From Pyruvatibacter sp. HU-CL02332 (GTDB taxonomy: Bacteria; Pseudomonadota; Alphaproteobacteria; CGMCC-115125), in the NCBI RefSeq assembly GCF_040362765.1, contig NZ_BAABWK010000002.1, positions 496,001-560,000 of the forward strand: 64,000 bases of DNA, written 5' to 3'. The notes under the pieces were generated by a model. That model was given only the letters and a program-made list of their open reading frames with translations. It had not been told where the DNA came from and did not search any database. Numbering within the stretch: position 1 is the first letter of the stretch; the number at the start of each line of letters is the position of its first letter. This document shows positions 4,278 through 8,812 of the stretch, piece by piece. Made by a program: the position numbers and the translations under genes.

Positions 4278-7200
4278 CTACAGATCTTCAACGTGCGCGA
4301 CGCCGTCAATTGCCTTGAGTGCACCGCGCGCTTGAGGGGTTACCTCAAAGCGTCCAGGCAGCGTGATTTCCACTTCCTTCTTGCCACCTTCGGCATCGAC
4401 AATAAGGCTCAATTGTCCCCTGCCCTTTGGCGGTAGGCAGGCCTGAATGCTGGTGAGGGCTTTTGGGTCATCCACGAACAGGCGCAAGCCGTTTGATGTC
4501 TCCGACGCAACCTTGTCCACTGGCTGAACAGTCGCAATCTTGAGCCGAACGTCATCCCCGTCCACCTCGGCCTCAACGCCGACGACCACAGACATGTTTG
4601 GTTCAAGAAAGTCGCGTGAAACAGCCAGCGCATCCGAAAATATCACTGCCTCAAATTCACCTGTGCCATCTGACAACCCCATAAAGGCGAAGCTGTTGCC
4701 GCTCTTGGATCGACGCTCCTGCTTGTAGGCCACCGTACCGGCCAGCTTGCCGACACGTGGTCCACCGGATGCAATAGCCTGCACAAATTCTGCATAGGGT
4801 TTGACGCGGGCGCGCCGCAAGGCATCACGATAATCATCCAGCGGGTGCCCGGACAGATAGAAGCCGACGGCTTCCATTTCGTGACGCAGCCTTTCCATCG
4901 GCATCCAGTCGCGCTGGTCTCCCAGTCGCAGATCAGGGGCCACACCCGGCCCATCGCCAAACAGACTTGATTGTGAACTTTCGCGCTCTGCATCAGCACG
5001 GCTCATCTCAGCCATGGCCTTATCGGCGGCGCCATGAAGTCGTGCGCGGTTTTTGTCCACCACGTCGAATGCACCCGCGCATGCGAGATTCTCAATAGCG
5101 CGTTTGTTCACAAATTTTGGAGATACGCGAGAGGCAAAGTCTGCGACAGACTTGAAGGGGCCGTTCGATTGTCGTTCCTCCTCCAAGTGATGCATGGCCT
5201 GCTTGCCTACATTGCGAACTGCCGCAAGCGCATAGGAAATCGCACCGTCAATCACCGTAAATTCTGCACCGGACTGGTTTATGTTGGGCGGGTAAACCTC
5301 GATTTCCAAGCGCTGCGCTTCGCGTCGGAACGTATTCAGTTTGTCCGTATTGCCCATATCAAGATTCATTGAGGCCGCAAGGAACTCCACTGGGTAGTTG
5401 GCCTTGAGCCAGGCAGTTTGATACGCGACGAGAGCATAGGCAGCTGCGTGACTCTTGTTGAAGCCATAGCCGGCGAATTTATTGACCTGCTCGAAAATGC
5501 CAGCGGCCTGCTTGCCGTCAACCTTGTTCGCTTCCGCGCCCTCGACAAAGCGGACCTTTTGCTTGTCCATCTCTGCCTGGATCTTCTTGCCCATGGCACG
5601 GCGCAACAAATCAGCGTCCCCGAGTGAATAGCCGGACAGGACCTGGGCAATCTGCATCACCTGTTCCTGGTAGATCATGATCCCATAAGTTTCGGTCAGG
5701 ATCGGCTCAAGACTTGGATGCAGATAGTCGGGTTCTTCGTCGCCCTTCTTCACGGCGAGATATTTGGGAATGTTGTCCATCGGGCCGGGACGATAGAGCG
5801 CCACCAGAGCGATGATGTCCTCAAACCTGTCCGGCTTCATCTTGCGCAGGATGTCGCGCATACCGGAACTTTCGAGCTGGAACACGCCCACAGTCTCACC
5901 GCGCGAGAGCATCTCGTAGGTCCCGACATCATCGAGCGGCAGCGCCTCGATGTTGACGTCAACGCCGCGGTTTTTCAGCAGCTTCAGCGCACGCTCAATG
6001 ACCGTGAGGGTTTTCAGTCCAAGGAAGTCGAATTTGACGAGCCCCGCCGGCTCCACCCACTTCATGTTGAATTGGGTGACCGGCATGTCAGAACGCGGAT
6101 CACGATAGAGGGGCACCAGCTCCTGCAGTGGTCGGTCGCCGATCACCACGCCCGCTGCATGGGTGGACGCGTGGCGGTACAGACCTTCCAGCTTCAAAGA
6201 CATGCTGATCAACCGGTCGACAATTTCTTCAGACCGACGTGCTTCCTGCAGCTTTGGTTCGCCCTTAATGGCTTCGCCGAGCGTTACAGGATTTGCAGGA
6301 TTGTTCGGCACAAGCTTACATAGACGGTCAACCTGGCCATAGGGCATCTGCAAGACGCGCCCGACGTCACGCAACACAGCACGGGCCTGCAACTTACCGA
6401 ATGTGATGATCTGGGCGACCCGATCACGCCCGTATTTCTCCTGCACATAGGAGATCACTTCATCGCGACGGTCCTGACAGAAATCAATATCAAAGTCCGG
6501 CATGGATACGCGTTCGGGGTTCAAGAACCGTTCGAACAGCAGACCAAATCGCAACGGATCAAGGTCTGTGATGGTGAGCGCCCAGGCAACCACTGACCCG
6601 GCACCTGAACCACGTCCCGGGCCTACGGGTATGTCGTGCTGCTTTGCCCACTTGATAAAGTCGGCAACGATCAGGAAGTAACCAGGGAAGCCCATGTTCT
6701 GGATAACGCTGAGTTCAAACTCCAGCCGCTTCCAATAGTCTTCCTCCGGTGCGTAGGTCCCAAGTGCTTCAAGGCGGGCTCGCAATCCCTCTTCAGCCTG
6801 ACGTTTGAGCTCAGCAGATTCACCTTCAACGCCATCCAGCCCTTCAAACCGCGGAAGGATTGGGTCAATGATGCGCGGGCGGTACGCACACCGCTGGGCG
6901 ATCTCAACAGTTGAAGCGATTGCTTCAGGCAGATCAGCAAAAAGCGCTGCCATTTCGGCGCCTGATTTGAACCGGTGATCCGGTGTCATGCGGCGGCGGT
7001 CTTCCTGCATCACATAGGCACCGTCCGCCACACACAAAAGCGCATCGTGGGCTTCGTAATCATCAGCTTCAAAGAAGAAGACTTCATTGGTCGCCACCAA
7101 AGGCAAATTCTGGTCATACGCAATGTCCAGAAGTACCGGCTCGGCCGTAGCCTCCTCAGCCATACCGTGTCTTTGGAGTTCGACATAAAGCCGATTGGGG

Positions 7201-7754
7201 AATGATCTTGCCAGTGTCCGCGCAAGCTCTGCACCCGCGTCTGATTGCCCGGAAACGATGAGGCGGTTTATCGGGCCATTTGGTCCACCGGTGAGGCAAA
7301 TGAGCCCTTCGGCATGGCTGGCCAATTCATCGAGTGAAATGTGCGGCTGCTCGGTACCGTCGGTCCCCAGATAGGCCTCAGAGGTGAGGGCCATCAAATT
7401 GAGATAGCCGACTTCGTCCTTCGCAAGGAGCGCGATTGTTGGGTCTGGCGGACGGACACCGCCGCCTCTTACAGGTTCAACCTCGAGGTCCAATGCGAGG
7501 GTGCACCCAATGATGGGCTGGACGCCTGCGCCGGAGAGTTTTTCTGAAAATTCAAGAGCACCAAACAGATTGCCGGTATCGGTGACGGCCACCGCTGGCA
7601 TGTCCATTGCCTGACACCGACCGGCCAAATCCGGCACTCGCACGGCACCTTCCAGAAGGGAATAAGCCGTATGAAGCCTCAGGTGGACAAAGACAGGATC
7701 TTTGAACTGCCGGATCTCATCCGGCGTCGCGTCTGCGCTCGATTCGTCACTCAT
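4278..7754 (-). CDS. dnaE: DNA polymerase III alpha subunit (replicative, DnaE1 type)
   Basis: Catalytic subunit of the replicative polymerase. The N-terminal PHP domain starts FVHLRLHTAYSLLEGAV. The palm carries the catalytic aspartates in MPDFDIDFCQDRRDEVI (about residues 419-421). The fingers and tau/beta-binding regions follow (GYGFNKSHAAAYALVAYQTA), then an OB-fold near residue 1000 (RVGKLAGTVAYKQERRSKSG). At 1158 residues it has the length of the main replicative DnaE rather than error-prone DnaE2. It lies 87 nt downstream of the micropeptide gene and may share that gene's SOS promoter. The ribosome binding site is weak (TTAGG). Confidence 0.97.
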   Translation of the reverse strand: MSDESSADATPDEIRQFKDPVFVHLRLHTAYSLLEGAVRVPDLAGRCQAMDMPAVAVTDTGNLFGALEFSEKLSGAGVQPIIGCTLALDLEVEPVRGGGVRPPDPTIALLAKDEVGYLNLMALTSEAYLGTDGTEQPHISLDELASHAEGLICLTGGPNGPINRLIVSGQSDAGAELARTLARSFPNRLYVELQRHGMAEEATAEPVLLDIAYDQNLPLVATNEVFFFEADDYEAHDALLCVADGAYVMQEDRRRMTPDHRFKSGAEMAALFADLPEAIASTVEIAQRCAYRPRIIDPILPRFEGLDGVEGESAELKRQAEEGLRARLEALGTYAPEEDYWKRLEFELSVIQNMGFPGYFLIVADFIKWAKQHDIPVGPGRGSGAGSVVAWALTITDLDPLRFGLLFERFLNPERVSMPDFDIDFCQDRRDEVISYVQEKYGRDRVAQIITFGKLQARAVLRDVGRVLQMPYGQVDRLCKLVPNNPANPVTLGEAIKGEPKLQEARRSEEIVDRLISMSLKLEGLYRHASTHAAGVVIGDRPLQELVPLYRDPRSDMPVTQFNMKWVEPAGLVKFDFLGLKTLTVIERALKLLKNRGVDVNIEALPLDDVGTYEMLSRGETVGVFQLESSGMRDILRKMKPDRFEDIIALVALYRPGPMDNIPKYLAVKKGDEEPDYLHPSLEPILTETYGIMIYQEQVMQIAQVLSGYSLGDADLLRRAMGKKIQAEMDKQKVRFVEGAEANKVDGKQAAGIFEQVNKFAGYGFNKSHAAAYALVAYQTAWLKANYPVEFLAASMNLDMGNTDKLNTFRREAQRLEIEVYPPNINQSGAEFTVIDGAISYALAAVRNVGKQAMHHLEEERQSNGPFKSVADFASRVSPKFVNKRAIENLACAGAFDVVDKNRARLHGAADKAMAEMSRADAERESSQSSLFGDGPGVAPDLRLGDQRDWMPMERLRHEMEAVGFYLSGHPLDDYRDALRRARVKPYAEFVQAIASGGPRVGKLAGTVAYKQERRSKSGNSFAFMGLSDGTGEFEAVIFSDALAVSRDFLEPNMSVVVGVEAEVDGDDVRLKIATVQPVDKVASETSNGLRLFVDDPKALTSIQACLPPKGRGQLSLIVDAEGGKKEVEITLPGRFEVTPQARGALKAIDGVAHVEDL

Positions 7755-7841
7755 GGCCTAAGTGTACCGCCAAGTGATCCGGCCCGGTTACAGGGGTTTC
7801 AGTTATCCCCAGAAAAGACGCCTGACGCAGCTGCTTGTGGA

Positions 7842-7940
7842 TTATCCGGCGGCCTGCGCAGCGGCAGTCAGTGCAAAGCCACTCCACATGACAGCACCAA
7901 GAACGAAGAGAGCAGCGGTATCTTTGACCCATTCAGACAT
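7842..7940 (-). CDS. 32-residue single-pass membrane micropeptide, SOS-regulated, SidA-like
   Basis: A very small gene with unusually good signals: GGAGG (7951-7947) sits 6 nt before the ATG at 7940 and the frame ends in TAA. The peptide starts MSEWVKDTAA, has a hydrophobic helix over about residues 9-28, and ends AAQAAG. A charged N-terminus followed by one membrane span fits an inner-membrane micropeptide. The promoter upstream has a perfect LexA box in its spacer. By architecture (size, single span, SOS control, place next to dnaE) it resembles SidA, the 29-residue SOS-induced division inhibitor of Caulobacter that acts on FtsW/FtsN. Sequence homology to SidA was not tested. That the gene is real is likely; the division-inhibitor role is inference. 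Confidence 0.72.
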   Translation of the reverse strand: MSEWVKDTAALFVLGAVMWSGFALTAAAQAAG

Positions 7941-7946
7941 ATCCAG

Positions 7947-7951
7947 CCTCC
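7947..7951 (-). promoter_or_regulatory. Consensus ribosome binding site of the micropeptide
   Basis: The minus strand reads GGAGG, then CTGGAT, then ATG, a 5-base Shine-Dalgarno core at 6-nt spacing. It is one of the better initiation sites in the window and is the main reason for calling the 32-codon frame a gene. Confidence 0.75.
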
Positions 7952-7975
7952 AGCTGTAACGTTCAATGTGGAGGC

Positions 7976-8005
7976 ATCATGTTCTCTTTTTGTTCTTTTG
8001 GTCAA
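7976..8005 (-). promoter_or_regulatory. Promoter of the micropeptide (and possibly dnaE)
   Basis: On the minus strand, TTGACC (8005-8000, five of six consensus bases) is followed after 18 nt by CATGAT (7981-7976, four of six). Transcription would start near 7969 and give a leader of about 28 nt ending in the GGAGG site. The LexA box fills most of the spacer, so bound LexA would block RNA polymerase. Confidence 0.55.
7981..7995. promoter_or_regulatory. LexA (SOS) box, GTTC-N7-GTTC
   Basis: The plus strand reads GTTC TCTTTTT GTTC, an exact match to the direct-repeat LexA operator known in alphaproteobacteria such as Caulobacter and Rhodobacter (GAAC-N7-GAAC on the other strand). It lies between the -35 and -10 of the micropeptide promoter. 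A further single GTTC occurs at 8017-8020 at unsuitable spacing. The eight fixed bases alone would occur by chance now and then in 64 kb; the promoter position and downstream gene make it convincing. Confidence 0.65.
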
Positions 8006-8107
8006 GTACCTATTTTGTTCTTTTTATCAAAGATCCCATGCAGTGTCGACTTCAGCAATTTCTGACTGAAATTCAGCGGTTTTTCTCAAGGCCACCAGAG
8101 AAACTGA

Positions 8108-8812
8108 TCAGAGTTGGTTGCCTGCAATGTCAGCGCCATCAACCAACAGGCCTTCATGTAGAAGGACCACCCGGTCCATTTCACGGGCCAGATCGAGGTT
8201 ATGTGTGGCAACGAGTGCGGCAACACCTTCACCACGGGTCAATTGGACGAACTCATTGAAGACACCGCGGGATGTCTTTGGATCAAGATTGCCCGTTGGT
8301 TCATCCGCCAATAAAAGCCGGGGCCGATTGGCCAGCGCGCGGGCAATTGCCACCCGTTGCTGCTCGCCGCCTGACAGTTGCGCAGGCCGATGCTCCAGAC
8401 GTTCTTCGAGGCCAAGCCTGCCCAGCAGACGCTCCGCCACAGCAATGGCTTCCTTGCGTTTCACGCCAGCAATGAGTTGCGGCAGTACGACATTCTCGGT
8501 CGCGGAGAATTCGGGAAGCAGATGATGTGCCTGATAGACGAACCCGACCTCAGTTCGGCGCACGCGCGTCTTCTCTGAATCCGAGAGCCCCATGCATGGA
8601 ACGCCGCCAATTTCGACCTCGCCTGCATCAGGCTGTTCCATCAGCCCCGCAATGTGAAGCAACGACGATTTGCCCGCGCCGGACGGACCAACCAAGGCAA
8701 CCAGTTCGCCAGGCTGAACGGATAGATTGGCACCGCGGAAAATCCGCAGCTCATCCTCACCCTGCATGAATGTCCGTTCGACACCCTGCAATTCCAGTGC
8801 GGCATTACTCAT
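8108..8812 (-). CDS. lolD: Lipoprotein-releasing ABC transporter, ATP-binding subunit
   Basis: ATPase that powers release of mature lipoproteins from the inner membrane to LolA. It has a Walker A motif (GPSGAGKSS), the signature [15 protein letters not shown], Walker B ([12 protein letters not shown]) and the switch histidine (VATHNLD). The frame extends upstream, but the start is placed at [15 protein letters not shown]: it gives 234 residues, the family length, and overlaps the permease stop by 8 nt (ATGAGTAA), a normal coupled arrangement. The next minus-strand gene downstream is the SOS micropeptide, 167 nt away and with its own promoter. Confidence 0.93.

Follow-up and report, generated by a model that had tools for sequence, protein, structure and literature searches.

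The window (the whole stretch of 64,000 nucleotides analysed here) carries between lolD and dnaE a gene for a 32-residue peptide that is very probably a SidA-family SOS checkpoint gene, the product of which would act on FtsW by analogy with the Caulobacter peptide. Comparison of sequences supports its assignment as a SidA orthologue, distantly related to the Caulobacter division blocker. The SidA-like checkpoint function had been proposed in the initial annotation and is supported by conservation in congeners, SidA-sized peptides in Caulobacteraceae, a profile from which the window's genus was excluded, synteny, and the type of operator found at lexA. The new aspect is how widely SidA occurs: it appears to form an old family that annotation has missed. 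No description of the family outside Caulobacter was found in the literature searched; the 2011 SidA paper lay outside this search, and an earlier mention is possible.

The gene, its promoter and candidate LexA operators

The frame of 32 codons, the GGAGG sequence at 6 nt, the promoter TTGACC-18-CATGAT and the perfect LexA operator in its spacer, all described in the initial annotation, were confirmed base for base (Table 1). The frame starts with ATG at 7938-7940 and is separated from dnaE, which lies on the same strand, by 87 nt. With 32 amino acids the peptide is close in size to SidA, a single-pass peptide of about 29 residues, and structure prediction gave a single helix (residues 3-31, pLDDT 95). 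The peptide has no match among Pfam and NCBIfam models, and five relatives compared with the same collections gave just two meaningless NCBIfam matches below the cutoff. Just 5' of the -35 element there is another box (GAACAAAATAGGTAC, 8006-8020), which the initial annotation had overlooked.

Table 1. Features of the lolD-dnaE region in the window; G001 and G003 are congeners of the window organism.
Feature	Position	Strand	Description
dnaE (DNA polymerase III alpha)	4278..7754	-	ORF; downstream neighbour
SidA-family micropeptide gene (probable)	7842..7940	-	32 codons and stop, MSEWVKDTAALFVLGAVMWSGFALTAAAQAAG; ORF read directly
Shine-Dalgarno sequence GGAGG	7947..7951	-	6 nt to ATG; read directly; same in G003
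-10-like element CATGAT	7976..7981	-	read directly; CATTAT in G001 with equal spacing
LexA operator GAACAAAAAGAGAAC (candidate)	7981..7995	-	perfect GAAC-N7-GAAC inside promoter spacer
-35 element TTGACC	8000..8005	-	18 nt before -10; read directly
Second LexA-like box GAACAAAATAGGTAC	8006..8020	-	one mismatch; also in G003, absent from G001
lolD (ABC transporter ATPase)	8108..8811	-	ORF; upstream neighbour

The published LexA consensus of Caulobacter is GTTC-N7-GTTC (PMC12700426). This bare motif is not significant in the 64-kb window, with 3 occurrences found versus 2.06 expected; the composite pattern TTGAC-N3-7-GAAC-N7-GAAC occurs once in the window and not at all in 100 shuffles. The lexA gene of the window genome has an operator of the same type as the micropeptide gene in its own promoter (TTGACG...GAACCAAAATAGAAC), and a LexA-type box is located about 170 nt upstream of recA. 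The genome harbors lexA and recA as well as ftsW, the latter in a dcw-like cluster.

Conservation in congeners

Among the genomes compared, the order of the window organism consists of one genus, and a search of 59 genomes with the single peptide sequence gave convincing matches in congeners only. G003 encodes the identical peptide, with 8 substitutions relative to the window that all fall at third codon positions (dN 0, dS 0.45). G001 shares about 76-78% DNA identity with the window over the region, and 17 of its 23 substitutions are at third positions (dN 0.11, dS 1.59). Its promoter (TTGACA...GAACAAAACAGGAAC...CATTAT) includes a perfect LexA box with the same place and spacing as in the window, which means that the candidate operator in the spacer is conserved in a divergent congener. 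G001 keeps peptide, promoter and operator, and the adjoining intergenic DNA does not align. Judged from these alignments the 32-codon frame is a real gene under purifying selection, since the congeners retain peptide, promoter and operator amid scrambled surroundings and the substitutions are mostly synonymous. The initial annotation had made its proposal dependent on conservation of the frame and LexA box in close relatives, and both congeners show it.

A chance ORF beneath a chance box, an explanation that could appeal to the roughly two copies of GTTC-N7-GTTC alone expected in the window, is refuted by these conservation data and was rejected; considering the synonymous-biased evolution, the conserved operator and the enrichment of boxes at dnaE junctions (see below), its probability is negligible.

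Relation to SidA of Caulobacter

C. crescentus SidA is an SOS-induced inner-membrane peptide of 29 residues that acts on FtsW (PMC4211646). Caulobacteraceae genomes were located with a DnaE probe that served just this purpose; conclusions were drawn from the fetched sequences. The dnaE loci on contigs named as Caulobacter, Phenylobacterium and Brevundimonas mostly encode a 29-residue peptide, in one case 30, under LexA boxes, for example in Caulobacter sp. (L179, 29 residues), Phenylobacterium (L186, MVRLARESLAFVSVASFVWMVCSVAGLVS) and Brevundimonas (L189, MSRWVRDLLSLASCGGFVWMVWQAALLAQ). Several of these loci have double LexA boxes. In C. crescentus the sidA locus is CCNA_02004 (PMC10769358), whereas dnaE and recN are numbered CC1926 and CC1983 (PMC1839093); recN is also CCNA_02062 (PMC12700426), and when the locus numbers are connected via recN, sidA and dnaE therefore lie within about one gene number of each other. 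The position of sidA next to dnaE, which the initial annotation gave, is consistent with this deduction. From their size, regulation, genus and position, and not from a letter match, we infer that the peptides in the dnaE slot of Caulobacteraceae are SidA.

A profile made from Caulobacteraceae peptides only is not sufficient by itself to link the window peptide to this group, as it scores 3.2 bits and about 4.6% of shuffles score as good. Searched against 6993 frames, the same profile has as its top matches outside Caulobacteraceae SOS-boxed peptides encoded upstream of dnaE in other families. Transitive extension of the profile (E<=0.05), from which the window's genus was left out at every step, added only SOS-boxed dnaE-upstream peptides and then reached the window peptide at an E-value of 0.016 (6993 frames); 4 out of 20,000 composition-preserving shuffles scored at least as high in the extended profile. 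The genus-excluded alignment (A3), which includes 7 Caulobacteraceae rows, was compared to the whole window genome and the micropeptide frame was the sole match at E<=10, with an E-value of 9.8e-4. It is thus through the genus-excluded profile that homology to the Caulobacteraceae peptides of the same locus was found.

The family core W/F-x-K/R-D/E-x-x-A-L-x-S-x-x-x-x-x-W aligns almost without gaps. The window peptide resembles SidA in length, in having a single helix, in the LexA box in its promoter and in the lolD-dnaE slot, and its N-terminal W/x-x-K/R-D/E-x-x-x-L core is gap-free against the 29-residue peptides of the named Caulobacter contigs. It differs by a low to moderate identity (10-34% to the Caulobacteraceae rows) and in that two boxes are frequent in Caulobacteraceae. 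Good conservation is confined to the N-terminal half, the C-terminal half being poorly conserved. The direct similarity to Caulobacteraceae is weak; the connection depends on intermediate sequences, synteny and the operator. Short hydrophobic helices are easily confused with each other.

Proposed mechanism and comparison with other membrane peptides

In the proposed mechanism, LexA bound in the promoter spacer would keep the micropeptide gene silent. DNA damage would activate RecA, upon which LexA cleaves itself and the promoter opens, and the 32-residue single-helix peptide would be made and enter the inner membrane. There, by analogy with Caulobacter SidA, it would bind FtsW, and possibly FtsN, holding the FtsW/FtsI/FtsN septal-wall complex inactive, and therefore division would wait for repair. 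That the window peptide is induced, enters the membrane, has this target and blocks division is inferred in each case; SidA of Caulobacter is proposed to hold FtsW/FtsI/FtsN in an inactive state (PMC4211646). Transmembrane segment 7 of FtsW is a contact predicted with low confidence (PMC13396833).

Caulobacter also has DidA, a protein of 71 amino acids that is SOS-independent and binds FtsN (PMC4211646). Like the window peptide as proposed here, it is a damage-induced single-pass membrane division inhibitor; it is longer and not LexA-controlled. The use of FtsN instead of FtsW by DidA (PMC4211646) illustrates a possible alternative, that is, a SidA homologue that in the lineage of the window has switched to another partner in the divisome or envelope. 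Such a switch would agree with the restriction of good conservation to the N-terminal half and with the variation of FtsW sequences among lineages, but the SOS checkpoint setting and the helix core are conserved, and we regard it as unlikely. Contact with FtsW is shown or predicted for YneA of Bacillus, SosA of Staphylococcus and ChiZ of Mycobacterium (PMC13396833). These, too, are single-pass proteins that are induced by SOS or damage and inhibit division at a late stage, but they are larger, some with extracellular domains, and occur in different phyla; no homology is claimed.

The window peptide could instead be an SOS-induced peptide that depolarises the membrane and slows growth without binding to the divisome, as do peptides of the TisB/DinQ type. 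The general form is equal, with an SOS promoter, about 30 residues and one hydrophobic helix. TisB and DinQ of E. coli are toxic membrane peptides under antisense RNA control and are not known to be linked to dnaE, whereas sequence and synteny place the window peptide in the dnaE-linked SidA family. Furthermore, the conserved W-x-K/R-D/E face would suit a specific partner more than a pore. Although both groups are short SOS-induced membrane peptides, DinQ being an SOS-regulated single-transmembrane peptide (PMC3567139), a depolarising role is quite improbable.

The dnaE junction across Alphaproteobacteria

Homology to the N-terminal part of DnaE was found in 370 of 387 alphaproteobacterial genomes, and 128 dnaE-upstream regions (L016-L147) were picked by DnaE similarity alone, which makes the sample skewed toward DnaE proteins resembling that of the window and not a census of prevalence in the class. 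A lolD-like frame is present in 66 of the 110 pieces fetched first, always on the dnaE strand. Forward GAAC-N7-GAAC boxes within 600 nt occur at 21 of the 128 junctions, against 1.2 expected from shuffles, and for GAACA-N6-GAACA the numbers are 19 and 0.0. Most boxes are followed by a frame of 26-47 residues with one hydrophobic span. The fetched loci have 58 perfect forward boxes upstream of dnaE; 34 of them are accompanied by a TTGAC no more than 16 nt away, which in most cases begins 10-12 nt ahead of the box.

A profile that included the window's genus (A2) was searched in six frames of the 387 genomes and gave 26 matches. As in the window, 25 of these lie immediately upstream of dnaE, in ten families, and the remaining one (G207) directly follows lolD, dnaE being located on a different contig. 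Nearly all matches have LexA boxes. The conserved but unannotated family that the initial annotation considered plausible at the lolD-dnaE junction is thereby borne out as a conserved slot across about ten families. In six genomes that had contributed no peptide to the profile, the LexA boxes are perfect in four and have one mismatch in two, an independent confirmation since the profile contains no DNA information.

These arrangements also bear on the idea that the frame is a leader peptide or attenuator of dnaE and that the LexA promoter really belongs to dnaE, for which its place 87 nt upstream on the same strand could be cited. The distance to dnaE differs among lineages and amino acids are conserved across half of the length; in G207 the relative has a LexA-like promoter and has kept its place next to lolD although dnaE is on another contig, and it is therefore not a dnaE leader. 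On these three grounds the leader was rejected as very improbable. The SidA-like gene of G207 is at about 1450-1580 of locus L287, and the gene that follows it resembles an NtrY-type sensor kinase.

On balance, it is somewhat more likely than not that SidA is the ancestral alphaproteobacterial SOS division checkpoint and no Caulobacter speciality. In this view a large part of the class would have retained it between lolD and dnaE, annotation would have overlooked it for being so short, and some lineages would have lost it or have other, unrelated SOS-controlled membrane peptides in its place. To our knowledge, SOS division inhibitors are known species by species and look unrelated, SulA of gammaproteobacteria excepted. 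With a peptide family that can be followed through sequence, operator and neighbourhood in at least ten families, the DNA-damage checkpoint of Alphaproteobacteria would become predictable from genomes. The family reveals the conserved SidA residues (W-x-K/R-D/E-x-x-A-L, then an aromatic residue further along the helix), its natural variants open the FtsW contact to testing, and annotators gain a concrete rule for a gene class that they omit.

LexA-boxed hydrophobic micropeptides with no clear match to the SidA profile are encoded upstream of dnaE in loci L021, L034, L032, L050, L090 and L134 (for example MTPTGLSLIKEMCASISLLLFAGGLLTLLSALAGG); they could be family members that have diverged or unrelated peptides that took the place of SidA. 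Finally, DnaA boxes (TTWTNCACA) occur within 250 nt upstream of dnaE in 24 of the 128 loci, compared to 3 and 5 of the 128 for the two following intervals of 250 nt; dnaE may thus be controlled by DnaA in Alphaproteobacteria. In the window, 7754-7850 contains the DnaA-box near-match TAATCCACA and GGGGATAAC.
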